Shown here one piece after another: positions 2,136 to 52,284 of a DNA stretch of 55,003 nt. A model generated the notes under the pieces. The model worked only from the letters and a program-made list of their open reading frames with translations. It ran no database searches and was not told the DNA's origin. Origin of the DNA: a bacterium (GTDB lineage Bacteria; Pseudomonadota; Alphaproteobacteria; Rhizobiales; JAKIUO01). The stretch spans positions 1-55,003 of the forward strand of contig JAAETJ010000587.1 in the NCBI GenBank assembly GCA_024228495.1, in the 5' to 3' direction. The position numbers and the translations under genes are program-made. Position 1 is the first letter of the stretch, and every line of letters starts with the position of its first letter.

Positions 2136-3803
2136 ATGAGTAAGATATCAGATGCTGGTAAAGCCCCGCGCAAGCGCCAAACTACCAAAAATTCCCCTCA
2201 AAAAAACGCATCAAAATCAAAACGCCAGAACACGAATGATCACAATAAACGCGAGGACAGCAAGCCCGACCGAAAGCCGGACAATCGCCGCCGGGCCCAT
2301 GCCGCCAGAACCGCCAGTAAAAACGGGGAAAAAGAAGGGGGACGCCAAGGTCGCAATGAGAGGAATAATGAGCTCAGCAAACGCCCTTACAAGGGCGACG
2401 ACCAAAGACGCAGTTCTTCAAGCGAGCAAAAGGGCAGCGCTAAAAACCGCGTTAGGCACCACCAATTCAAGCCCAAGGGTCCCGAAGGTATTATGGCTCG
2501 CGAAGCCGCCGTCGTTCTCTTGCAAAATGTGCTCACCAACCGGCGACCACTCGACGAAATACTGCTGCAATCCGACAAAGTACCAGAGCTTGCTCATCTC
2601 GCCAAAGCGGATCGTGGTTTCGCACGGGCCATCGCCGCCACAGCGTTGCGCCGTCATGGACAATTGCTCGACGTAATCGGTCAGTTCATGGAGAAAGGCA
2701 TCCCTGATCGTGCCGGACCGTTGCGCGAGATTTTGATCAGTGCCGCCGCGCAGCTCCTGTTCCTCGACAGCCCGCCACACGCCGTTTTAAATATCGCCGT
2801 GCAGCAGGTAAAGCGTGATCATAATAGTCGCCGCTATGACAAGCTGGCCAATGCGGTGTTGCGTCGTGTATCCGAAAAAGGACCCGACCTTATCAAGGCA
2901 CAAGATGCGGGCCGCCTCAACACGCCGAACTGGCTGTGGAATTCCTGGTGCAAAGCCTATGACAAGCAAACAGCCAAATATATCGCCGAAGCGCATCTGC
3001 ATCAGGCCCAGCTTGATCTAAGCGTTGTTGAAAATCCCGATGTCTGGGCAAAAAAACTGGGGGGCGCATTGTTGCCCACCGGCTCAATCCGCCTCAAACA
3101 CAAGGGCCGTATCGAAAATATTGAAGGCTTTGAGGATGGTGCCTGGTGGGTGCAGGACGCTGCCGCAGCGCTGCCCGTCAAACTGCTTGGCGATATAAAA
3201 GGCAAACGGGTCGCCGACCTTGCCGCTGCGCCTGGCGGCAAGTCCGCGCAAATGGCCGCACAGCGCGCAAAAGTGACCGCTCTTGACTGGTCCGTTGGTC
3301 GGCTGAAACGTTTGCAGGAAAATTTTGACCGCCTGGAGCTAGAGGCTGATATTGTCTGCGGTGATATTTTAGACTGGCAACCAGACGAGCTGTTTGATGC
3401 AGTTCTGCTGGATGCCCCATGCACCAGCACCGGTACCATCCGCCGCCATCCCGACCTACCCTATCTAAAACGGCAAAGCGATATTGAGGAACTGGGAAAA
3501 ATACAAGCGAGATTACTCGACAAAGCTCTAGTGTTCGTCAAACCCGGCGGCACGCTGATATATTGCACCTGCTCCTTGCAACCAGAAGAAGGCGAACAGC
3601 AAATCGCTGCCCTTTTAAAGCGCAACAAAAAGGTCAAACTGGATATTATACTGCCAGAGGAACTAGCAGGCCGCGACGACTGGATCACCCCGCAAGGCAC
3701 CCTACGCACCCTGCCATATCACCGTCCCTTCGACAAAGCCGAGTTCAAAAAAGTAGGTTCGGGTATGGACGGGTTCTTTGCCGCGAGGATACTTGTTTCA
3801 TAG
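2136..3803 (+). CDS. rsmB: RsmB-type rRNA (cytosine-5) methyltransferase with a basic N-terminal extension
   Basis: 555 aa. Residues 1 to about 120 form a low-complexity Lys/Arg/Asn/Ser-rich tail absent from the compact family core. Then come a NusB-like RNA-binding domain (about 122-265) and a SAM-dependent methyltransferase domain with DLAAAPGGKSAQ (motif I), VLLDAPCTSTGTIRRHPD (Cys nucleophile region, motif IV) and YCTCSLQPEEGE (motif VI). RsmB methylates C967 of 16S rRNA in E. coli; the same substrate is inferred here. A second RsmB/NOP-family gene is at 29,739-31,040, so the division of labour is uncertain. The N-terminal tail may be an RNA-binding extension. Confidence 0.88.
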   Translation: MSKISDAGKAPRKRQTTKNSPQKNASKSKRQNTNDHNKREDSKPDRKPDNRRRAHAARTASKNGEKEGGRQGRNERNNELSKRPYKGDDQRRSSSSEQKGSAKNRVRHHQFKPKGPEGIMAREAAVVLLQNVLTNRRPLDEILLQSDKVPELAHLAKADRGFARAIAATALRRHGQLLDVIGQFMEKGIPDRAGPLREILISAAAQLLFLDSPPHAVLNIAVQQVKRDHNSRRYDKLANAVLRRVSEKGPDLIKAQDAGRLNTPNWLWNSWCKAYDKQTAKYIAEAHLHQAQLDLSVVENPDVWAKKLGGALLPTGSIRLKHKGRIENIEGFEDGAWWVQDAAAALPVKLLGDIKGKRVADLAAAPGGKSAQMAAQRAKVTALDWSVGRLKRLQENFDRLELEADIVCGDILDWQPDELFDAVLLDAPCTSTGTIRRHPDLPYLKRQSDIEELGKIQARLLDKALVFVKPGGTLIYCTCSLQPEEGEQQIAALLKRNKKVKLDIILPEELAGRDDWITPQGTLRTLPYHRPFDKAEFKKVGSGMDGFFAARILVS

Positions 3804-4203: not shown

Positions 4204-4947
4204 GTGCAGTACACAGAAAATAATTATGCAAGGCGAACATTGGGTTTTGTCGAGCGGATGAACCAACTTAATGACTACGACCTTATTTGTCGAGAAATTG
4301 AAAATGAGCTGTGCTGGTATGGCCTGACAAGCAATACCATCATGAAAATTCCCGGGCCCATGGACAATTTGGCGGACGGGATATTTTTAAACACCCGACC
4401 CACTGAATATTTAGATCACTATGTCGACCAGAATTATCTGGTGAAAGATCCCATCATCACCGAGTTATCACACACGGTAAAGCCATATTCATGGAATGAT
4501 ATCCGCCAGAAACGACGGCTCCCAAAAAAACAAAAATTCATCATAGATGAAGGACGTGAATTTGGTGCCACTGATGGCTTTGTCGTTCCCATCCATACGA
4601 TGTCGGGAGAACTATCTATTTTCAGCCCATGTGGAGAGAACCCTGATCTGTCAAGTCAAGCTCGCTCCTCGCTGGAAATCATCGGAATGTACAGCTATGA
4701 AATGCTCAAACGATCGCTTATTCAAAAACAAAAAGATAAAATCACCTATAAACCTTTGACACTCAGAGAACGTGAAGTCCTTTCGTGGGTTGCCGCTGGC
4801 AAGACCGATGACGAAATATCCACCATATTATCCATCTCGATGACAACCGTTGCCTGCCATGTCGATAATGCCAAGCACAAGCTTGGAGCGTACAAACGCA
4901 CCTACGCCATCGTCCAGGCCATTAAACTACGCGAAATTTCCCTTTAA
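4204..4947 (+). CDS. luxR: LuxR-family acyl-homoserine-lactone-responsive regulator
   Basis: 247 aa, GTG start with GAGGTG upstream. Residues about 15-165 form the autoinducer-binding domain and 184-240 the GerE/LuxR helix-turn-helix (LTLREREVLSWVAAGKTDDE, then ISTILSIS). Using TraR numbering, the ligand-pocket residues Y61, D70, P71, W85 and G113 are present as Y73, D82, P83, W97 and G125. The usual W57 is Tyr69. A luxI gene follows 101 bp downstream in the same direction, so this is a cognate regulator and not a solo. It probably controls luxI and the dioxygenase gene through the nearby inverted repeats. The ligand chain length cannot be read from sequence. Confidence 0.92.
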   Translation: MQYTENNYARRTLGFVERMNQLNDYDLICREIENELCWYGLTSNTIMKIPGPMDNLADGIFLNTRPTEYLDHYVDQNYLVKDPIITELSHTVKPYSWNDIRQKRRLPKKQKFIIDEGREFGATDGFVVPIHTMSGELSIFSPCGENPDLSSQARSSLEIIGMYSYEMLKRSLIQKQKDKITYKPLTLREREVLSWVAAGKTDDEISTILSISMTTVACHVDNAKHKLGAYKRTYAIVQAIKLREISL

Positions 4948-4967
4948 TAACAATGACAACATCTGTC

Positions 4968-4987
4968 TATCCTACGTTCACAGGATA
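4968..4987. promoter_or_regulatory. candidate lux box upstream of luxI
   Basis: TATCCT-N8-AGGATA is a perfect 6-bp inverted repeat with the 6-8-6, 20-bp geometry of classical lux boxes. It sits about 60 bp before the luxI ATG in the 101-bp luxR-luxI gap. The half-site differs from the canonical ACCTGT and from the repeat at 4048, so the assignment rests on geometry and position. Confidence 0.45.
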
Positions 4988-5048
4988 CCCATTGCAAACC
5001 AGGATCGGCATCTTGTGCCTCATTCACAATCATATTGAGGAGAAAAAA

Positions 5049-5717
5049 ATGGTAATGATTATTAGAGGCAAGGACCGTAAAGAGCATCAAGAATATTTCG
5101 ATCAGCTTTTCAAGCTACGGTACAAAATTTTTATTGAGGGTCGTGGCTGGTCTCTACCAACCAAGCAAGGACTGGAGATCGATCAATATGACGATGAAGA
5201 AGCGATCTATTTTCTTGATTTGAATGAAGAGAGAAAAATCGAGGGAACTGTGCGCATTACACCCACTGAAAAAAGCTCGTTAACCGCCGATTATTTTTCC
5301 CATCTCATCGAAAACGGTCAGTCCGCGCGCGCTCACACCGTCTATGAAGCAACCCGCTATATTGTTCGACCAAGCAAACGAAGTCGAGAAGAAAATCGTG
5401 CTGCTAAATCCCGACTATTAAGTGCCTTAACAGAGTGGTGCCTCAAAAACGGTGTAGAATCTATTCAAACAGTCATCGACAGCAACACCCTCCCTACCTT
5501 TATTGAACTCAACCCAAAGGTCCGTCCCATGGGCCTGTCATATCCTTATGGTGGAGGTCGCCAAAACCATGGCGGTGGTGACTGCATGGCTATTCGGTGG
5601 CCGATTTCTCAAGAAATTCTTGAATGCGTCCGCATCTATGGTGGTCTTGATCCAACAAAAGATCTGAACAATCCCGACTTTGTCACCTCAAACAATCCCA
5701 GCGAAATGATCCAATAA
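5049..5717 (+). CDS. luxI: acyl-homoserine-lactone synthase (LuxI family)
   Basis: 222 aa. The ATG at 5049 is chosen because GAGGAG lies 7-8 nt before it; an upstream in-frame ATG at 4953 lacks such a site. The ten invariant LuxI residues are all visible as R24, F28, W34, E43, D45, D48, R69, F83, E100 and R103 (LRYKIFIEGRGW, EIDQYD, YEATRYI). The enzyme makes an acyl-homoserine lactone from S-adenosylmethionine and an acyl-ACP or acyl-CoA. T141 sits where a Thr in other LuxI proteins correlates with 3-oxo substrates; that is only a hint. The gene lies between luxR and a PhyH-family gene, all in one direction. Confidence 0.95.
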   Translation: MVMIIRGKDRKEHQEYFDQLFKLRYKIFIEGRGWSLPTKQGLEIDQYDDEEAIYFLDLNEERKIEGTVRITPTEKSSLTADYFSHLIENGQSARAHTVYEATRYIVRPSKRSREENRAAKSRLLSALTEWCLKNGVESIQTVIDSNTLPTFIELNPKVRPMGLSYPYGGGRQNHGGGDCMAIRWPISQEILECVRIYGGLDPTKDLNNPDFVTSNNPSEMIQ

Positions 5718-5756
5718 TTATCGCTTCAATCACTTTACAATTAAAGGGTATTCATC

Positions 5757-6719
5757 ATGACAAAACTAACAAGAGCAATCACACCTGACGAAATTGCCTC
5801 CTACAATATGGCGGGGGTCGTTCTTCTCAAGGGCGTGCTGGATATAACAGCCGTCAATATGGTTCGAAAATCCATCGACACTGCCATCAATACACTCGAC
5901 AAAAGCCAAAGCGGCTATGATCTGAGCGCCATCACCACCGCCGCGGAACAAGGCGATGATAACAGTTTGATAGCCGACAGCCACGGGCAGCATGATATCA
6001 AAGCCATCATGGATCATATCGAACAGTCTGGAAATGAATTCTTATATGATCAATCACCGAATGCAGGTGAAGGTCGATTTCTGCTTGATACCGCTATCTC
6101 ATCCCGGCTACGTGAATTCAATCGGTTCGTCCGGCGCGGAGCCGGTCCAGAAATAGCAGCAGCGCTCTTGGACTCAAAAAAGATCAACTTCTTTGGCGAT
6201 CAGGTGTTTTTGAAAGAACCAGGCACGCGCGAGCGTACCGCCTTCCATCAAGATGCCTCCTATTTTGAAATTGAAGGCGATCAGTGCTGCGTCATGTGGA
6301 TACCCACCGACCCGGTAAAACTAGAACATGGCGCAATGATATATGTGCGCGGCTCTCATAAAGATGGTCATCTTTATCAACCCAATGTATTCATCTCACA
6401 AACTCCCCTACCTGATTCAAAAGGAGATGTATTGCCAGATATTGAAGGCCACCTTGACGATTATGATCTGGTTCATTTTGATACCGAGCCTGGAGATGTG
6501 CTCGTACATCATTACAAAACCGTGCATGGAACAGGTGGAAATACCAGCCGCTATCAAGTTCGACGAGCAGCATCCCTAAGATATTGTGGCGATGACATTC
6601 GTATCAAACGGCGCCCTGGCACGCCCAAACAGCTACATCATACGAACGACCTCAAAGACGGCATGCCGCTGGATGGAACCGACTTCCCGGTCGTATGGCG
6701 TCAAGCTGCAGCAGCGTAG
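5757..6719 (+). CDS. phytanoyl-CoA dioxygenase (PhyH) family protein
   Basis: 320 aa Fe(II)/2-oxoglutarate-dependent oxygenase of the PhyH type. The metal triad is visible as His164-x-Asp166 (TAFHQDASYF) and a distal His257 (VHGTGGN); Arg residues shortly after are candidates for 2-oxoglutarate binding. It starts 39 bp after luxI with AAAGGG upstream, so it is probably co-transcribed and controlled by quorum sensing. The substrate is unknown. Possibilities are hydroxylation of an acyl chain of the signal or its precursor, or a small-molecule target made under quorum control. No other biosynthetic gene follows in the locus. Confidence 0.85.
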   Translation: MTKLTRAITPDEIASYNMAGVVLLKGVLDITAVNMVRKSIDTAINTLDKSQSGYDLSAITTAAEQGDDNSLIADSHGQHDIKAIMDHIEQSGNEFLYDQSPNAGEGRFLLDTAISSRLREFNRFVRRGAGPEIAAALLDSKKINFFGDQVFLKEPGTRERTAFHQDASYFEIEGDQCCVMWIPTDPVKLEHGAMIYVRGSHKDGHLYQPNVFISQTPLPDSKGDVLPDIEGHLDDYDLVHFDTEPGDVLVHHYKTVHGTGGNTSRYQVRRAASLRYCGDDIRIKRRPGTPKQLHHTNDLKDGMPLDGTDFPVVWRQAAAA

Positions 6720-20300: not shown

Positions 20301-21005
20301 CAGCTGCCCGCCTGGATGGAGCAGACGGCAGAAAAACCGCCCGCAAAAATTGCTACCGTCAGCCCGTCAAATCTCATCCCTACTGAACTTTCCGACAGCC
20401 TTGCCGAAAACCTGCACGATGATGCCCTCGATCTGGAGCGCGACCGGCTGGCACGCAATATGGGCAAATATCGCGGTATTCTCGTGCATGCCCTGCTGGA
20501 ACATTTACCGGCATTATCTCCGGATCTATGGCATGCCGCAGCGGCGCGCGTCCTTGATCGCAATGGCCGAGATCTAACCGATGAACAGCGAGTTGAAATT
20601 ATTACCGAGGCGATCCGCGTCCTCGAACACAAGGAATTTGCTAATCTGTTTGCGGCAAATTCCTCGGCCGAAAGCTCTTTTATCGCCTCTATTGATACGC
20701 CAAAAGCCACCGATCCCGGTCTGCGCATCTCGGGACAGATTGATCGACTGGTGGTGACTGACAAAGAAGTGTTGATCATCGATTATAAAACCAATCGTCA
20801 TGTGCCATTGAGTGCTCAAGAAATCCCAACCGCCTATATAGCCCAACTTGCCGCCTACCGCTTATCGGTGCGTCCTTTATTTGGCGATAAAGCCATCAGG
20901 TGCGCATTATTGTGGACCAGACAACCTTTCTTGATGTGGCTACCAGATGCCCTGATGGACGAATATGAGAGCCAATTACCTGATATGGCCAAAATGAGTG
21001 CATAA
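17394..21005 (+). CDS. addA: AddA, UvrD/RecB-type helicase-nuclease subunit
   Basis: 1203 aa. Helicase motifs in order: Walker A VSANAGTGKTHVL (about residue 30), motif Ia CLTYTNAAAAEM, motif II LVDEAQDTSPAQW, motif III VGDEKQSIYSFQGA, motif V MTVHGAKGLEAEIVF and motif VI LYVAMTRARDQLYI. The C-terminal nuclease domain has RGILVHALLEHLP and GQIDRLVV plus IIDYKTNR. The motor and nuclease residues appear intact. It pairs with AddB encoded immediately upstream. Confidence 0.95.
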   Translation: MSTTNQTAQEAVVETTRRQAQAAEPFGSRWVSANAGTGKTHVLVQRVLRLLLAGAKPDTILCLTYTNAAAAEMENRLYERLSTWAVMSHEELQQTLAMLLAKTPDDTELKLARTLFATTLETAGGLKVQTIHSFCDRLLRRFPLEAEIAPNSSLLDEAAARELKTSSIERILLKAAKKPDSPLGQALTTVIAFTSEDGFNGVINEALGKRNLIKTLVQHDKGGRDPFEKAIARLYDEFGLAKSDGEAGLRQELAQTITDQQIDAVYEALNTGGGIAAKTAESLMLAKHAANPRQRTDHLHSAFLTKAHTPKKSLCAKAVREAAPALIEQLVEAQQRFVELWQRQRALRVVLASEALLRLSSQILQAYTSAKMQRAQLDFDDLIEKTNWLLEKSGGASWVLFKLDSGLDHILVDEAQDTSPAQWALISKLTEEFFAGKGTHENQQIDRTIFAVGDEKQSIYSFQGAQPKLFALMRQTMERQAKNINHDLPLIPLTLSFRSTPAVLQAVDAVFTDRDKTPGITFSNQQIHHGAMREGEPGLVEIWDLEQAEKGEKSPVWNPLEDLGRNEDPKEKLADNIALTIKGWLDTKELLKAKNRPIKPGDILILVRKRHPFTQPMIRALKRHDIPVAGADRMKIAEHIAVEDLMALGDFLLLPEDDLALATVLKSPMFSLDDDDLFTIRRDPSDPDLVITGKDGIERVKNIPLWWALKKAHDQGKSELMSAAYEQLARWMKRADKVPPYELFAGILDINGMREKLTSRLGSEAGDAINEFLSMALTFDDGAPPSLQEFLSSVRDINFEIKRDMEKGVNEVRIMTVHGAKGLEAEIVFMPDTTTASSSNKSGAVHRLQASGHPSDIPDHLIWCVPGSKDVEQIKAIHDQRLEAEKEEYNRLLYVAMTRARDQLYITGYLVRNKLPENSWYALVKAGLEELVIETNDARGNKIWRFETGLSSKPASDTTTTASTVDETLQLPAWMEQTAEKPPAKIATVSPSNLIPTELSDSLAENLHDDALDLERDRLARNMGKYRGILVHALLEHLPALSPDLWHAAAARVLDRNGRDLTDEQRVEIITEAIRVLEHKEFANLFAANSSAESSFIASIDTPKATDPGLRISGQIDRLVVTDKEVLIIDYKTNRHVPLSAQEIPTAYIAQLAAYRLSVRPLFGDKAIRCALLWTRQPFLMWLPDALMDEYESQLPDMAKMSA

Positions 21006-21123
21006 GCAACTATTGCATCTCGCCACTTGACGCGGGGCGACCGACTACATAGTTTCTCACCTATATGAGATAGCAAACGTTCTGGCGTACTTGCCAGATC
21101 ATTCAACGACAAGGAGATTTTTA

Positions 21124-21447
21124 GTGGCTACCAATATTACGGACGCAGAATTCCAAGAGGAAGTACTCAACTCTTCCGTACCAGTTCTCGTTGACTTCTG
21201 GGCGGAATGGTGCGGCCCGTGCAAACAGATCGCTCCAGCACTTGAAGAGCTTGCCGCAGAGATGGGAGGCAAACTGAAAATCGTCAAAATCAATGTCGAC
21301 GAAAATCAGAAAGTACCGACTGAATATCGCATTCAGGCTATTCCAACCTTGATGCTGTTTAATAATGGTGAATTGGTTGACCGCAAAATGGGCGCACTGG
21401 CCAAATCAAAGATCGAAAACTGGGTCAACGATAGCATCAGCGCCTAG
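21124..21447 (+). CDS. trxA: thioredoxin
   Basis: 107 aa from a GTG start at 21124 preceded by AAGGAG. Active site WAEWCGPCK (Cys residues about 31 and 34) and the cis-Pro segment AIPTLMLFNNGE are present; the size is standard. It reduces cytoplasmic disulfides, including ribonucleotide reductase. trxA behind addA is a common alphaproteobacterial order. An intrinsic terminator follows. The usual next gene, folC, lies about 1.1 kb away on the other strand behind the micro-peptide cluster. Confidence 0.96.
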   Translation: MATNITDAEFQEEVLNSSVPVLVDFWAEWCGPCKQIAPALEELAAEMGGKLKIVKINVDENQKVPTEYRIQAIPTLMLFNNGELVDRKMGALAKSKIENWVNDSISA

Positions 21448-21468
21448 ATCAGATATTTTTTTTGAGAC

Positions 21469-21509
21469 ACAAAAAACCGGAGTCAGAAAATTTCTGCCCC
21501 GGTTTTTTC
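21469..21509. terminator. bidirectional intrinsic terminator after trxA
   Basis: AAAAAACCGG and CCGGTTTTTT flank an additional CAGAAA/TTTCTG stem, giving a long hairpin with T runs on both strands. It lies between trxA (plus) and the last micro-peptide gene (minus), so it can end both transcripts. Confidence 0.85.
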
Positions 21510-21548
21510 TTATCTGCGAGCCTCGTGGAACCCGCTATGTGTGGCGCT

Positions 21549-21683
21549 TTATTGGCCACGACCTCCATTAATGGCATCTTGAGCCCAGTCTGTATATCCA
21601 GAGCCTATATCGAGGGCAGAAGCACCGCCAACACTGGCAAATGTTCCAAGTACGATGGCGGAGACGAGAAGTAGTTTCTTCAT
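21549..21683 (-). CDS. secreted micro-peptide 1 (44 aa), novel family
   Basis: 44 codons, too short for routine gene callers. The start has AGGG about 9 nt upstream. MKKLLLVSAIVLGTFASVGG begins a classic signal peptide (two Lys, hydrophobic core, ASA at 21-23 before the likely cleavage). The mature part is 21 residues, starting LDIGSGYTDWAQDA and ending GGRGQ; it is acidic, has no Cys and one Trp. It is the last of four equally long genes in the same direction, 42 bp after copy 2. A 121-bp block covering most of the gene and its leader is about 96% identical to copy 2. I do not know a function. It is exported, and the Tyr-x-x-Trp-Ala core is shared in part by its paralogues. Confidence 0.8.
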   Translation of the reverse strand: MKKLLLVSAIVLGTFASVGGASALDIGSGYTDWAQDAINGGRGQ

Positions 21684-21871
21684 GATATTGTTCCCTTATT
21701 TGTAAATCTTGTGTGTTGCGGAAGATTAGTTGCTTTGTCCAGAAATGAATGCATCTTGAGCCCAGTCTGGATATCCAGAGCCGATATCGAGGGCAAAAGC
21801 ACCGCCAACACTGGCAAATGTTCCAAGTACGATAGCGGAGACGAGAAGTAGTTTCTTCATGATATTATTCC
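21574..21871. repeat. direct duplication inside the micro-peptide cluster (2 x 121 bp)
   Basis: Positions 21574-21694 and 21751-21871 align without gaps with about five mismatches in 121 bp. The block covers codons 1 to about 37 of copies 1 and 2 plus their ribosome-binding region. The short 3' parts outside the block are unrelated. Confidence 0.9.
21726..21860 (-). CDS. secreted micro-peptide 2 (44 aa), novel family
   Basis: 44 codons with AAAGGA 8-9 nt before the ATG. The signal peptide is the same as copy 1 except AFA in place of ASA before the predicted cut. The 21-residue mature part begins LDIGSGYPDWAQDAF and ends SGQSN. Relative to copy 1 it has Pro for Thr before the DW pair and a diverged C-terminal tail. 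High nucleotide identity to copy 1, including the ribosome-binding region, implies recent tandem duplication. The constant export signal and variable tail resemble families of secreted signals or interference peptides, but that is speculation. Confidence 0.82.
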   Translation of the reverse strand: MKKLLLVSAIVLGTFASVGGAFALDIGSGYPDWAQDAFISGQSN

Positions 21872-21909
21872 TTTAAATTCATTTATAATGCTTGTGTGAA
21901 ACGAGAGCT

Positions 21910-22044
21910 TCAGTCGGAGCCGACGTTAAAGGCGCTAATGGCCCAGCTCGAATAACCATCTGTATAAATGCTATCTGCCGAAGCAATGCCAGCACTTGCA
22001 AATGAACCAAATACAATTGTCGAGATGATGAGAAGTTTTTTCAT
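21910..22044 (-). CDS. secreted micro-peptide 3 (44 aa), novel family
   Basis: 44 codons, AAAGGA about 9 nt before the ATG. Signal peptide MKKLLIISTIVFGSFASAG ends with ASA at 21-23, predicted cut before Asp24. The 21-residue mature part begins DSIYTDGYSSWAISAF and ends VGSD. The Tyr-x-x-Trp-Ala spacing matches copies 1 and 2 (YTDWA, YPDWA, YSSWA). The protein sequence is otherwise clearly diverged, so the family is older than the copy 1/2 duplication. It lies 49 bp before copy 2 and 52 bp after copy 4. Confidence 0.8.
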   Translation of the reverse strand: MKKLLIISTIVFGSFASAGIASADSIYTDGYSSWAISAFNVGSD

Positions 22045-22096
22045 AGTCGTTTTCCTTTAGGTTAGTAGGTTAGTTTGTGTTTTTCGAGGGGATATA

Positions 22097-22231
22097 CTAC
22101 CTAGATCCTGACTTATAGCTATCAAGTAGCCAGTTAGACGTTTCGGTATCCAGGTTATCGATCGCTGATGCAGTGCTGACACTGGTAAAAGTTCCTGCAA
22201 TGATCATGGTGGCAACCATTATGTTCTTCAT
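22097..22231 (-). CDS. secreted micro-peptide 4 (44 aa), novel family, most diverged
   Basis: 44 codons, AAGG 7-8 nt before the ATG. Signal peptide MKNIMVATMIIAGTFTSV runs to TASA at 20-23. The 21-residue mature part begins IDNLDTETSNWLLDSYKS and ends GSR. The length, cleavage position and the Trp match the other three copies, but only a few residues are identical. It is first in the row, behind an AT-rich 350-bp region that probably carries the promoter. Coding status rests on the signal peptide, the ribosome site and the equal length of all four genes. Confidence 0.75.
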   Translation of the reverse strand: MKNIMVATMIIAGTFTSVSTASAIDNLDTETSNWLLDSYKSGSR

Positions 22232-22578
22232 CTTTTACCTTTCCTTTTGGCTGTTAATCTGCGTTTGTCGTTTCGATAACTAAAAGCTAATCCTTGTTGT
22301 TTAATAATAATAGCCCCTCTCACGCCCATGTGATTTCTGTTTATATTAAAAGATATTTCGTGATAATTTTGGTTACTTGCGTGATTTGAATGTAACGTCA
22401 ATATAACAATTAAGTTATACTTTTGCTTATTGTGTCAATATATCAGCACTCGCGATCAAAAGCGTGTGAGGTCGGAGTGAATTGGTATGCAAATGCATCC
22501 ACAAGCCCAAAGGGATTTGCGCTAAAAAAACTCTGTGAGCTTGAAATTTTCTTAAAAAGTCAAAAAATAATTAAAAAT
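22232..22578. promoter_or_regulatory. AT-rich region upstream of the micro-peptide genes
   Basis: 347 bp between micro-peptide 4 and the folC stop. No ORF or RNA was recognised. The stretch 22290-22440 is markedly more AT-rich than its surroundings. It contains short A/T tracts such as TATTATTATTAAA on the minus strand that could provide promoter elements for the peptide genes. The part nearest folC (about 22530-22578) is A-rich without a clear terminator hairpin. Confidence 0.4.
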
Positions 22579-23901
22579 TTAGCCCGATATCTCTAGAACA
22601 TGGCCTACCAGATAGAGCGAACCACATATCAAGATGCGCACCGGCTCTTCGCCAAGGTTATGAGCCCGTTCGCCGCTAGCGGCCAGCGCATCAAGCACAT
22701 TGTCACAATGCATGGCCCGCAAGCCCTGCCCTTTTGCAATTTCCTTCAGCTCATCGGCTGGCCAGCCATTTGTTGTATTGGGCACTGGTACTGTGAAGAC
22801 CATTTCACACAAGCCTTCAAAGACCTGCAAAAATTCGGCTGCATTTTTACGCTGCATCATGCCAATGACCAGATGCAAAGGGCGTGAAAACTGCTCTTCG
22901 AGATCAGCCATACTGGCGGCCAGTACTTCCGCCGCCGCTCGGTTATGACCTCCGTCCAGCCAGATTTCGCTATCTGTATTGAATTTGCTATTAGTGGCCA
23001 GCTTCTCGGTCTCAAGCAATTGCAGCCGCGCGGGCCAGGAGACTTGCCGCATGGCCTTTTCCAACTGCTCTTGTATCGGCTTGAAATCTGGCAGGCTGAG
23101 GGCTGCGGCAACCGATACCCCGGCATTATTGATTTGATGCGAGCCAACAAGACGCGGCAATGGCAGCGCCAGCAACCTGGTTTCATCCTCGTAAATCAAT
23201 CGCCCAAGCTGCTCATAGGCTTTGAAGTCCACCCCTTCTACGCGCAGGGGCACATCAAGTTCCATTGCCCGCTTGCGCAAGACATCAAGCACTTCGTTTG
23301 ATTGTTTTCCGACCACGCAAGGAACGCCGCGCTTCAAGATACCGGCTTTTTCAAAGGCGATTTCAGCCAGGCTTGAACCAAGAAAATCCATATGGTCCAT
23401 ACTAATAGGCGTAATGATGGTCAACACGGGGTGATCGATGACATTGGTCGCATCAAAACGACCGCCAAGCCCCGTTTCCAGAATAAGATAGTCCGCTGGG
23501 GTTTCAGCAAAGGCCAGAAACGCCGCCACCATCGTGATCTCGAAAAAGGTGATGGACTCACCCGCATTGCCAGCTTGCGCGCGCATCAACACATCCACCA
23601 GCTGCTTTTCGGAAATATCGGCGCTGCCATTTTCTCCAGCCAGTCGAATACGCTCATGAAACGAAACAAGATGGGGAGATATAAAGCTGTGCGCCGTCTT
23701 GCCGGTGGCCGCAATCAGTGCATTTAGATAGGCCAGCGTTGAGCCTTTGCCGTTGGTGCCAGCAATATGAATAACCGGAGGCAACCTATCTTGTGGCCGC
23801 TCAAGAGCCTCTAGGGCGCGTAAGGTACGCCCCAGGGATAAATCTATGAGGCTTGGGTGCAATTGCCGCAAACTGGCCAGCACATCATCACTTGATATCA
23901 T
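22579..23901 (-). CDS. folC: bifunctional dihydrofolate/folylpolyglutamate synthase
   Basis: 440 aa Mur-ligase-fold enzyme. P-loop HIAGTNGKGSTLAY is near residue 44; SFISPHLVSFHERIR, LETGLGGRFDATN and a C-terminal WLDGGHNRAAAEV are FolC signatures. It joins dihydropteroate with glutamate and extends the polyglutamate tail of folates. In many relatives it follows trxA on the same strand; here it is on the opposite strand with the micro-peptide cluster between. The next gene upstream is 12 bp away and probably co-transcribed. Confidence 0.95.
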   Translation of the reverse strand: MISSDDVLASLRQLHPSLIDLSLGRTLRALEALERPQDRLPPVIHIAGTNGKGSTLAYLNALIAATGKTAHSFISPHLVSFHERIRLAGENGSADISEKQLVDVLMRAQAGNAGESITFFEITMVAAFLAFAETPADYLILETGLGGRFDATNVIDHPVLTIITPISMDHMDFLGSSLAEIAFEKAGILKRGVPCVVGKQSNEVLDVLRKRAMELDVPLRVEGVDFKAYEQLGRLIYEDETRLLALPLPRLVGSHQINNAGVSVAAALSLPDFKPIQEQLEKAMRQVSWPARLQLLETEKLATNSKFNTDSEIWLDGGHNRAAAEVLAASMADLEEQFSRPLHLVIGMMQRKNAAEFLQVFEGLCEMVFTVPVPNTTNGWPADELKEIAKGQGLRAMHCDNVLDALAASGERAHNLGEEPVRILICGSLYLVGHVLEISG

Positions 23902-23912
23902 GCACGCATGTC

Positions 23913-24143
23913 CTATTTGTCTTCTTTATATTCATAATCGCGTCCCCATTGATAGCTGCTAAACAGGATATAAAGGGAAAACAGGACAATACCAATGCCA
24001 AATATGATCATGGGAGAAAGCCGCCAGCCATGCATATAAATATCGATGAACAACAAGATCAAACCAATCAGTCCGTAGATCAACTGTACTAATTCAGACT
24101 TCACCTGACTTCGGTGCAAAACCGTTACGATTTTATCGTACAT
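23913..24143 (-). CDS. small two-helix membrane protein, unknown
   Basis: 76 aa. Two hydrophobic segments (about 18-36 and 44-62) are joined by a short loop with HGWRLSPM. A charged N-terminus (MYDKIVTVLHRSQVKSE) and a charged C-terminus ending EYKEDK would both face the cytoplasm. It lies 12 bp upstream of folC on the same strand. No family recognised; coding status is supported by the membrane pattern and tight spacing. Confidence 0.55.
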   Translation of the reverse strand: MYDKIVTVLHRSQVKSELVQLIYGLIGLILLFIDIYMHGWRLSPMIIFGIGIVLFSLYILFSSYQWGRDYEYKEDK

Positions 24144-31115: not shown

Positions 31116-31412
31116 CTAGCTTGCAGCAACAGCAGCAGTTTTCTTTTTGATTTCACGTTTGATGCGTCGGGCATTTTGCGACAATTCGAGATCACTTGCT
31201 TTCAGCAAATAAGGATCAAGACCACCGCGATGCTCAACCGAGCGCAAGGCATGTGCACTTATACGCAAGCGGAACGAGCGTCCCAGCACGTCGCTGGCCA
31301 ATGAAACCTGGCACAGATTAGGCAAAAAACGACGCCGCGTTCTGTTTTTGGCATGAGACACATTATTGCCGCTCATAACCCCTTTGCCAGAAAGTTCGCA
31401 CACTCTTGACAT
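31116..31412 (-). CDS. rpmB: 50S ribosomal protein L28
   Basis: 98 aa, basic. [20 protein letters not shown] at the start and [13 protein letters not shown] next are the L28 signature; the C-terminus ends in a Lys/Ala-rich helix ([13 protein letters not shown]). It is a component of the large ribosomal subunit. Divergently placed against the DUF3108 gene, an order common in alphaproteobacteria. Confidence 0.97.
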
Positions 31413-31805
31413 GATAATTCGCTCCGTTACTTTAATGTCTGGTCATTGATCGCTTGATAATCTGATCATGGATCACTGGCCATATTTTTAGACAGGTCAT
31501 GCACCGCAATTTTGTATTCAGGTTAATTTTGTCATGAAACAAAAAAACCCGCGAATAACCTCACGGGATAAGCTCTGATATATAGTTGGCTGGGTGGATG
31601 CCGTCAAGCCTTAAGAAAACGCTTGAAATAGATGACCATTCCGGGCTCAGGGCCCCAGTCATAACGGCCCGGCTGGCAAAATATCCCCATAAACTAACAG
31701 ACACAAAATTGACCAAATAAACTTTTAGGGCCTTAATTAACCACGTTTGAGATATACTCATGCAGGAATTACCGTCCTGACCACAATATTTGGAGTTTGG
31801 CCCCT
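31413..31805. other. rpmB-DUF3108 intergenic region with a possible minus-strand small transcript
   Basis: 393 bp. The part nearest rpmB should hold its promoter. A minus-strand intrinsic terminator lies at 31541-31567, yet no convincing gene lies upstream of it on that strand. The segment 31640-31680 contains GC-rich self-complementary runs (CCGGGC and GCCCGG). A 66-codon frame (31561-31761, minus) and a 28-codon frame (31604-31690, minus) lack ribosome sites. A short non-coding RNA is possible. Confidence 0.35.
31541..31567 (-). terminator. intrinsic terminator on the minus strand
   Basis: On the minus strand CCCGTGA and TCGCGGG pair over 7 bp (one G-U) with a 6-nt loop, followed by seven T. 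It ends a transcript starting somewhere between about 31600 and 31800. Confidence 0.7.
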
Positions 31806-32690
31806 ATGGCTGTTTCTTTTGTCAATCGCGTTTTAATTGCCATGAAAAGTGGATTAGCCCTTGTTCTGGGTCTGATACTGTCGGTGACGAGCAACCATCA
31901 AGCCCGCGCCCAACTCGTTGATTCCAAAGTGCAAGCCACCTATCACATTAAATATAATGGCATCAAGCTGGGTAAGTTGAAATTCAAATCAACAGTGAAA
32001 GGGCACTCCTATATCATGGAATCCAACACCAAGCTGTCCGTGCCTTTGCTGGGGTCCATTTTCAAATCTTTAAGTTGGCGCGGTGTCACGCGCACGATCG
32101 GTTTTGTGTACAATCGCAAGCCAAGCCCCAATAATTATTATTTCGCCTTCAGCAATGGCAAAAAGGCTGGCAAAGTCGATATGACTTTTTCTGGCAATCG
32201 CGTCAGCCGCGTGATTAGTGTCCCCAACAAAAAACTGTCGCGTGAATATGTACAGGTTAAAAGCGCTCACTTGAGGCGGGTCATGGATCCCATGACCGCC
32301 ATCATGCTGATCTCGCGCAAAAGCAGATCACATCGCACGGCCTGCGCGAATACTATTCCTATCTATGATGGCAAGCAGCGTTTTAATCTGAAGCTCTCTT
32401 ACAAGCGCTCGATCCGGGTGAACCGCAAACAATCTGGCGGTTATGCAGGTCCCGTGATTATTTGCCGGGTTCGCTATCAACCGATAGCTGGCTACAAACC
32501 GCACAAAAAAGACGTCAAATTCATGGCCAAAACCAAAGGCATTGAGCTTTGGCTGATGCCCCTGCCAAAAAGCCGAAATTATGCGCCCTATCGTTTTGTC
32601 CTGCCCCTGCCCGTTGGCAAGGCTGAGGCAACTCTTGCGCGCTTTGATATTCGCAATGCAAGCGGTCGCAAGATCGCGCTTGTGCGATAG
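31806..32690 (+). CDS. DUF3108 domain-containing exported protein
   Basis: 294 aa. The ATG at 31806 has GGAG 10 nt upstream. A signal peptide covers about residues 1-37 (hydrophobic LALVLGLILSV, cut after ARA). The mature part is rich in Lys and beta-strand-like: YHIKYNGIKLGKLKFKS, VMDPMTAIM and the typical closing TLARFDI. DUF3108 proteins are conserved near rpmB in alphaproteobacteria and are predicted periplasmic; no molecular function is known. Confidence 0.85.
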   Translation: MAVSFVNRVLIAMKSGLALVLGLILSVTSNHQARAQLVDSKVQATYHIKYNGIKLGKLKFKSTVKGHSYIMESNTKLSVPLLGSIFKSLSWRGVTRTIGFVYNRKPSPNNYYFAFSNGKKAGKVDMTFSGNRVSRVISVPNKKLSREYVQVKSAHLRRVMDPMTAIMLISRKSRSHRTACANTIPIYDGKQRFNLKLSYKRSIRVNRKQSGGYAGPVIICRVRYQPIAGYKPHKKDVKFMAKTKGIELWLMPLPKSRNYAPYRFVLPLPVGKAEATLARFDIRNASGRKIALVR

Positions 32691-51159: not shown

Positions 51160-52284
51160 ATGCAAACATGGCTTCGCAGAATTTTGGCAATCGTGGCGAT
51201 GGTTGGATCTGTCTATGGACTATTAGCAGTCTATACTAAATTCGGCGACCTTAACGCCGGGGGAAGTAGCTATTTAGAGCTGTTCCTGACCAGCCTTGGA
51301 GGACTGTTTTTTCTGTATGGCATCATGTGCAGTTTTTGGCTGCTAGAACGGCGCACCGGATCAACCACGGCTAATGTCATATTCTGGCTGGCTCAAATTC
51401 CCGTGCTGACCACTGGATTTCTTTCCTATCATATCTACGCCCTTGGCAATCTCGCTATGACCACCAATCCGGATTTTGCAACATTTGGTGTTACCATGAA
51501 CATACCTGACAGCAATTTCCTATTGATGATGGGAGATAGCGGCCAAGGCGAGCTTATTGGCTTTAACATGTTCGCTCTGTTGATGATCGTACTGCTAATC
51601 AGCGTTGGTATCAGCACGTGCCGGGAAAAACGTCTCATATCCAATCTTAAATCCGCAGCCACTATCGCGGGGGGCGCAGCCGCTCTCACCGGAGCTGCTG
51701 TCGTTGCGGGAACCAAAGGCGCCGCATCGGTTGCCAGCACGGCAGGTGATGTTGCGGGCGGTGCAGTGGACGCTGCAAAAGTAACGGCCTCTGTTGCTGG
51801 AGACATCGGCGAAAAAGCCGTTGATGTGGCAGGAAGTGCTGCCTCAAGCGCCGCAGACGCCGCTGTTGATCTAGCAGGGGGCGCGATGGACACCGCAAAA
51901 GCAACGGCCTCTGTTGCTGGAGACATCGGCGAAAAAGCCGTTGATGTGGCAGGAAGTGCTGCCTCAGACGCCGCAGACGCCGCTGTTGATCTAGCCGGCG
52001 GTGCGATGGACGCCGCAAAAGCAACGGCCTCTGTTGCCGGAGATATGGCCAAAAAAGCCGTTGATGTGGCGGGAAGTGCTGCCTCAAGCGCCGCAGACAC
52101 CGCTGTTGATGTAGCCGGGGGCACGATGGACACCGCCAAGACAACCGCATCAGTTGCCGGCGACGCGGTCACCGGTGTGGCCGAGACGGCAGGGAACCTG
52201 ACGCAAAGCACCATGGATGCCGCGAAAGAGGCCGCCGCCCTTATAGGTAGCGCCGACAACGGAGATGACAAAGAAGAGGGCTAG
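51160..52284 (+). CDS. four-helix membrane protein with LEA-like Ala-rich repeats
   Basis: 374 aa, GGGGAGG 5 nt before the ATG. Residues 1-160 hold four hydrophobic helices (about 9-29, 39-62, 73-95, 137-156). From about residue 175 the chain is Ala/Gly/Val/Asp/Lys-rich. It contains three 40-residue repeats (208-327: [20 protein letters not shown], then [20 protein letters not shown]), plus partial units, before a short acidic tail. The repeats resemble group 3 LEA proteins: amphipathic 11-mer-like helices that protect membranes or proteins under desiccation or freezing. A membrane-anchored LEA role is inference; no homologous family is recognised. Confidence 0.75.
51781..52140. repeat. 3 x 120-bp in-frame tandem repeat
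   Basis: Units 51781-51900, 51901-52020 and 52021-52140 align without gaps; the first two are nearly identical, the third is more diverged. A fourth, degenerate unit starts at 52141. Each unit encodes 40 residues. Confidence 0.95.

Follow-up and report, generated by a model that had tools for sequence, protein, structure and literature searches.

The window analysed here is the whole stretch of alphaproteobacterial DNA of 55,003 nucleotides. Re-reading of its open reading frames recovered, on the minus strand at 21549-22231, the four tandem 44-codon genes that had been claimed in a preliminary description of this DNA. These genes and their neighbors are arranged as follows (the coordinates of the four micro-peptide genes include the stop codon; G001 to G004 are the other genomes of the genus):

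21091-21447, plus strand: trxA (thioredoxin; Pfam PF00085), convergent with the array
21471-21508, both sides: terminator-like hairpin between the array and trxA, with an A-rich 5' side and a T-rich 3' side, read by eye
21549-21683, minus strand: micro-peptide gene D, last of the array; 44 aa; Y-T-D-W-A; ends in N-G-G-R-G-Q, as does the last gene of G001
21726-21860, minus strand: micro-peptide gene C; 44 aa; Y-P-D-W-A-Q-D-A-F; the amplified type
21910-22044, minus strand: micro-peptide gene B; 44 aa; Y-S-S-W-A; orthologues in G001 and G002, similar copy in G003
22097-22231, minus strand: micro-peptide gene A, first of the array; 44 aa; mature part with T-S-N-W-L; orthologues in G001, G002 and G004
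22579-23901, minus strand: folC-like gene with Mur ligase domains (Pfam PF08245 and PF02875), on the strand of the array; the name folC fits

The intergenic gaps within the array are 52, 49, and 42 bp long and, as described before, every gene has its own ribosome site (AAGGA, AAAGG, or AAGGG) ending 6-11 bases 5' of the start codon. Genes C and D are near-duplicates in which a 125-nt stretch is repeated with 95% identity at a spacing of 177 bp. The array had been said to interrupt the gene order trxA-folC; it does lie between the two genes, but trxA is on the opposite strand and convergent with it while the folC-like gene, located 347 bp upstream, is on the same strand, and the array thus occupies the convergent gap behind folC. 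The hairpin at 21471-21508 has a similar counterpart at the equivalent place in G001, G003, and G004; it was not listed by the consensus terminator scan, appears usable from both sides, and probably ends the transcripts of both the array and trxA. Elsewhere in the window, genes for a LuxR-type regulator with an autoinducer-binding domain, an autoinducer synthase, and a PhyH-type dioxygenase (assigned by Pfam) stand in a row at 4204-6719 on the plus strand, and 51160-52284 on the same strand codes for a 374-aa protein with a membrane-like start and no Pfam match, whose second half contains three or more near-identical Ala-rich repeats around VDVAGSAAS.

Each product begins with a Lys-bearing start followed by a hydrophobic stretch and, in agreement with the preliminary description, is predicted to consist of a signal peptide (residues 1-23, ending in Ala) and a 21-residue mature part with one Trp. 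The Trp had been placed at the same position in all copies; it is residue 33 in two of them and residue 34 in the other two. The motif Y-x-x-W-A does occur in three copies, with E-T-S-N-W-L at its place in gene A, and the four products have, as claimed, no Cys and a low charge (predicted net charge -2.2 to -3.2). Three features do not vary across 27 aligned family members (Met1, Ala in the -1 cleavage column, and the Trp), Lys2 is present in at least 90%, and the common core reads Y-P-x-W-A-x-x-A-F; exact Y-P-x-W-A is found in 15 members and W-A in 24, and under a looser pattern a Tyr precedes the Trp by 3 or 4 residues in 22. The mature parts of all 27 lack Cys and range from neutral to acidic (net charge -5.2 to -0.2). 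Sec-type features (positive start, hydrophobic stretch, small -1 residue) characterize this alignment, from which we infer that the micro-peptides are exported by Sec to the periplasm, the location being deduced from the signal peptide. For the product of gene C, AlphaFold2 (19 alignment rows) predicted helices at residues 3-21 and 32-42 with moderate confidence (mean pLDDT 69.7, pTM 0.29). The second helix coincides with the conserved core and belongs to the mature part, where the pLDDT is 77 over residues 31-40 and 70 over residues 41-44.

Homologous clusters, which the preliminary description had named as support for a real family, were found when 61 genomes were searched with copy C as query: all five genus genomes recovered, including the own genome, contain arrays of 3 to 7 copies (four in the own genome, seven in G001, four at a contig end in G002, three in G003, and in G004 five full copies plus one cut copy spread over two contigs). 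The array is flanked by folC in four of the five genomes and by trxA in four of the five, the two missing flanks being contig ends; only the own genome and G001 have both genes flanking it on a single contig. The order of genes A, B, and C is the same in these two genomes and in G002; gene A is missing from G003, and gene B from the assembled part of G004. The lack of homologues and the frameshifts in sister genomes that had been named as refuting results were looked for, and neither occurred.

When 397 genomes of the order were searched with a profile, 18 candidates being scored per genome, reading of loci added two members in G006, five in G012, three in G028 (one of them cut), and one in G035, each of these genomes representing a different other family of the order; for the families of G012, G028, and G006 the collection holds one genome each. 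Among the matches listed, 164 of the 397 genomes had one at E up to 0.1 and nine had members below 1e-5. A wide distribution in the order was rejected, as the best E-value in each of the remaining 155 genomes was 7e-5 or weaker and many of these matches covered the signal part only or lay in long frames. Only the own genome gave a convincing result among 385 genomes of the class, where the matches in 21 other genomes had E-values of 5e-5 to 1e-3 and fell within open frames 99-685 aa long. Near a G006 member, a 50-aa signal-peptide-like open reading frame with W-A-Y-P (locus L037, 1844-1996, minus strand) perhaps encodes an unrelated small exported protein.

A search of a named genome collection with the motif pattern returned 24 stretches, 17 without a micro-gene and seven with one, the latter being six contigs from five alphaproteobacterial metagenome-assembled genomes (MAGs). 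These relatives carry the names of metagenome-assembled Alphaproteobacteria "Dive100" and of one uncultured Hyphomicrobiaceae bacterium; Dive100 is described as a diffuse-vent sample from the Southwest Indian Ridge (PMC9769843) and is tied to the MAG records by the sample name only. A TolQ tree was built with 31 rows: G001, G002, and G004 together with the 28 genomes, out of 30, that had a TolQ match (none was found in G019 and G049). In this tree the nine peptide-bearing genomes fall outside a group of 16 genomes without peptides. Peptide presence required four changes on this tree, a number as low in 1 of 500 shuffles, with the qualification that five of the nine genomes are close kin, so that any label would appear clustered. 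Well supported inner branches numbered 3 of 27, and peptide-less genomes mix with the nine. The distribution leans toward an old vertical presence with losses over horizontal spread.

The low dN/dS expected in the preliminary description for a selected family was also obtained. Values pooled by orthologue group were 0.26 for gene A (four sequences), 0.15 for gene B (three sequences), and 0.22 for gene C (three sequences), and single pairs gave 0.11-0.34. Pooling of 12 non-independent pairs gave a dN/dS of 0.16 in the mature and 0.28 in the signal part; by gene, the signal part compared with the mature part gave 0.49 vs. 0.12 for A and 0.23 vs. 0.18 for C, with the order reversed for B (0.09 vs. 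0.23). Purifying selection thus acts on signal and mature parts alike, which argues against a diversifying, specificity-switching peptide. The mature parts differ among paralogues and are conserved among orthologues, and the earlier picture of a constant leader with a variable mature end, if taken to mean diversification, finds no support in the pooled values, in which the mature part evolves under the lower ratio (gene B excepted). Chance open reading frames are ruled out by the arrays in five of five genus genomes and by the low dN/dS, and the micro-peptides are well supported as a real family under selection.

That no described family fits, as had been stated, was borne out by the library searches, in which nothing exceeded the usual cut-offs: no significant match was found in Pfam (best E 0.038), NCBIfam (24 members scanned; best E 0.0064, to the SE2200 family), PHROGs (best 0.019), or the PDB sequences (best 0.094), and PADLOC returned no match. 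The literature searched for described peptides or CenR-linked small proteins likewise provided no fit, which is not proof of absence. The family therefore is apparently undescribed, and would comprise exported small proteins with a core of their own and a habit of forming tandem arrays. Three other candidates were discarded: a structured RNA, as an implausible microRNA model in folC (E 0.47) was the sole Rfam match in 20500-24000 at a limit of E 1; a plasmid origin, as there was no match among plasmids; and a phage origin, as only five weak partial phage matches (E 2-5) and no viral contig with the motif pattern were found.

The region ahead of the array was scored with a matrix built from the 31 CenR sites of Rhodobacter sphaeroides, a distant alphaproteobacterium, given in Table 1 of PMC9275681. 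Two CenR-like boxes were identified:

22319-22333, minus strand: proximal CenR-like box, a 15-mer at -102 relative to the first start codon; 13.4 bits
22455-22469, minus strand: distal CenR-like box at -238, 136 bp upstream of the proximal box; 13.4 bits

The known 31 sites score a median of 10.5 bits on this matrix (range 0.9-14.8), and the corresponding boxes of the other four genus genomes score 12.4-14.1 bits. The proximal box lies in a wider element (22319-22344); its 15-mer is identical in five of five genus genomes and has one match in each even if three mismatches are allowed, and ATAAACAG-N3-TCACATGGGCGTGAG is kept within the 350 bp ahead of the array in all five, once per genome. An extra TCAC half-site (22480) starts 11 bp upstream of the distal box. 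In the 55-kb window only two sites of at least 12 bits were found besides both boxes and the proximal box read backwards. A 13.2-bit CenR-like site at 31396-31410 (plus strand), some 400 bp upstream of the gene at 31797-32690, may mark another target or be due to chance. A single sigma-70-like pair was found at the proximal box, with which it overlaps; pairs of this kind occurred at chance level (five found, 3.0 expected, sd 1.8).

Among the more distant members, boxes were found for G035 (12.8 bits at -104), G012c (12.5 at -187), G028a (11.4 at -151), and G028c (11.4 at -152), while five promoters stayed below 11.2 bits: G028b (9.3) and G012e (8.3) fall short, and G006a (6.4), G006b (5.4), and G012d (3.6) are clearly without a box. 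At a cut-off of 11.2 bits, which was picked post hoc, 5 of 10 peptide promoters compared with 6 of 263 control regions carried a box (Fisher p 8.7e-6); the counts were 5 of 10 vs. 20 of 263 at 10 bits (p 0.0008) and 3 of 10 vs. 4 of 263 at 12 bits (p 0.0012). In these comparisons the genus was counted once, and the three G028 promoters resemble each other and hence are not independent. The controls were regions ahead of long open reading frames, some of them spurious, in loci of the same genomes, from which loci L033 and L036 and any region containing the 15-mer had been dropped. With these regions kept, 6 of 272 controls reached 11.4 bits; two of the six were in L033 and L036 and had the score that the proximal box gives when read backwards. 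Of 300 matrices with permuted columns, none separated peptide promoters from controls equally well. One high-scoring control is the region ahead of the candidate cenR gene of G028.

More TCAC half-sites than in first-order shuffles were present upstream of all five genus arrays, of the three G028 genes, and of G006b; no such excess was seen for G006a, for G035, or for the three promoters of G012 that were tested. The G028 half-sites run in an 11-bp phase, and seven of the eight exact matches of TCAC-N7-TCAC-N7-TCAC in this genome, some of them overlapping, lie upstream of its three peptide genes (one match when the triple repeat was read backwards as a control). The six matches outside G028, distributed over 4 of 13 genomes (one each in the own genome, G012, and G035, and three in G017), include none ahead of a recognised peptide gene, and the genus arrays lack the triple repeat. 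In locus L039 (G028 contig C12, around 3540-3560) a run of N interrupts the tandem ATCACGC repeats of a peptide-gene promoter, and the repeat number there may therefore differ.

The loci of some distant members were also inspected by eye. ECF-like sigma factor genes are near three of them (L073, L042, and L043/L075) at no common position, and a link to ECF sigma factors was rejected. At L043/L075 (G012 contig C162) a peptide gene directly follows a gene for a fasciclin-like secreted protein, which is divergent from an apparent ECF sigma/anti-sigma pair of the SigK/RskA kind, and three more tandem peptide genes adjoin a lepA-like gene. At L073 (404-2532, G028 contig C44) an ECF-like sigma/anti-sigma pair and a divergent TPR-like gene, the latter with a 14.8-bit CenR-like site upstream, are located ahead of the third G028 peptide gene.

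In R. sphaeroides the published CenR motif is TGA-N8-TGA, and the 31 sites of Table 1 are mixed, with T[C/G]AC toward the start and [G/T]TGA toward the end (PMC9275681). The match of the array boxes to this operator, as read by the matrix, is a newly recognised link, and we infer that transcription of the array is controlled by a CenR-type regulator. The CenKR system is described as governing division and envelope genes and as essential in R. sphaeroides, with 29 of the 31 predicted direct CenR targets said to be envelope- or periplasm-targeted (PMC9275681).

The boxes might instead serve another OmpR-type regulator, and the peptides might then act in a different stress pathway, which we regard as unlikely. 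Direct TCAC repeats spaced by 11 bp would fit OmpR-type regulators generally, and the four genomes searched have 6, 13, 12, and 8 OmpR-type DNA-binding domains. In addition, tolQ, a CenR target in Rhodobacter, had a site of at least 11 bits in only one of nine genomes (up to 900 bp upstream, less at contig ends; best sites 11.3 bits in G003, 10.6 in G035, 10.3 in G012, and 6.4 in the own genome), and with the box absent or weak in the other eight it cannot serve as a positive control for the matrix here. Against this stands the 15-mer, which outscores the median known CenR site. ChvI, the one alternative regulator compared, was rejected, as its motifs (TTGC-N3-GCAA in Caulobacter, N-GCC-N8-GCC in Sinorhizobium; PMC9731502) differ from the array boxes. 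TCAC-N6-GTGA might also be read as a CRP-like site.

Loci were readable for 30 of the 39 matches to OmpR-type regulators when a candidate cenR was picked. The candidate, a gene of 228 aa, was chosen for its sequence resemblance, an Asp at position 56, and an upstream box, which scores 9.1 bits at -108 in G000 and G001 and 12.4 bits at -131 in G028. The CenR activity alleles D56E and D56A concern the same Asp position (PMC9275681).

Our leading reading, to which we give a little less than an even chance, is that the peptides are periplasmic effectors of envelope homeostasis under CenR-type control which act through a protein-binding helix. With a CenR-type promoter the simplest role would be in envelope homeostasis, as an effector or as a feedback ligand, and a short amphipathic, N-capped helix would suit a peptide that docks on a protein. 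One promoter ahead of the first gene would be switched by an OmpR-type response regulator, most likely CenR, at the boxes at -102 and -238. The products would be cleaved by signal peptidase, and the core would fold into a short amphipathic helix capped by Y-P and dock on a protein partner in the envelope, the likeliest being a sensor kinase in that pathway or the CenR-controlled machinery of division and peptidoglycan. Several copies would provide dose and a small spread of specificity. Signalling, contact inhibition, and surface coating had been proposed as roles; nothing found points to these, and the promoter evidence would rather indicate envelope regulation.

Secretion of the peptides as a pheromone or public good into the medium would agree with their small size, their export, the differing mature parts of paralogues, and the LuxI/LuxR pair in the window, by which the organism appears to signal. 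It seems improbable to us, as Sec alone delivers to the periplasm, no exporter, protease, or receptor gene was seen by eye to adjoin the array, and mature peptides of 2.2-2.4 kDa are large for ordinary porins. The conservation of mature parts across species is moreover contrary to typical specificity-switching pheromones.

A similarly small chance is given to the peptides being feedback ligands of an envelope kinase, made under CenR and binding CenK by its periplasmic domain, or a partner kinase resembling EssS of Brucella, to damp or tune it as MgrB does PhoQ. The CenR-like boxes ahead of the arrays would agree with this, as would the published accounts in which the ligand of CenK is called unknown and an envelope ligand or periplasmic accessory protein is proposed to modulate CenK (PMC10470753), in which CenR cooperates with EssS-EssR in Brucella (PMC10746171), and in which the 47-aa MgrB of the PhoQ/PhoP regulon inhibits PhoQ (PMC8404706). 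By eye, however, no kinase adjoins the array or the distant loci, MgrB is a membrane protein whereas the array peptides look cleaved, and 3 to 7 copies exceed the need of a simple feedback ligand. The more specific proposal that the peptides are the missing CenK/CenR ligands, a dosage-tuned set of 21-residue peptides whose core helix docks on the sensor or an accessory protein in a CenR-driven feedback, has in our view only a slim chance; if it were true, lineages without the peptides would rely on another accessory factor. Exported peptides with CenR-type boxes would be concrete, synthesizable candidates for what CenK senses.

An antimicrobial or toxic action against competitors or phage, suggested by short, exported products amplified in tandem, is very improbable given that the 27 members are not cationic and lack Cys, that no immunity or transport gene was seen by eye next to the array or the distant loci, and that PADLOC matches are absent and selection is purifying.

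The array peptides can be compared with several known systems. Array position, codon selection, and common promoters together can reveal tandem micro-gene families that annotation easily misses. The array boxes have the format of the CenR sites of the R. sphaeroides CenKR regulon, for which no product named in Table 1 is a micro-peptide (PMC9275681). Weak matches to the SE2200 family (NCBIfam NF040843) in 13 of 24 members, with a best E-value of 0.0064 that is weak for a 24-member scan, are perhaps due to the hydrophobic signal part. MgrB likewise has fewer than 50 residues and is made under a response regulator (PMC8404706); compared by description, it differs as a membrane protein from the array peptides, which look soluble, always have Ala in the cleavage column, and are encoded in tandem. 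DUF1127 proteins are often shorter than 50 residues, and three in Agrobacterium are reported to bind the sensor kinase PhoR (PMC12501420); this family is absent from the Pfam matches of the array peptides, which unlike DUF1127 proteins have a predicted signal peptide. The array peptides may work somewhat like MgrB or DUF1127 proteins, yet they are filed with neither.
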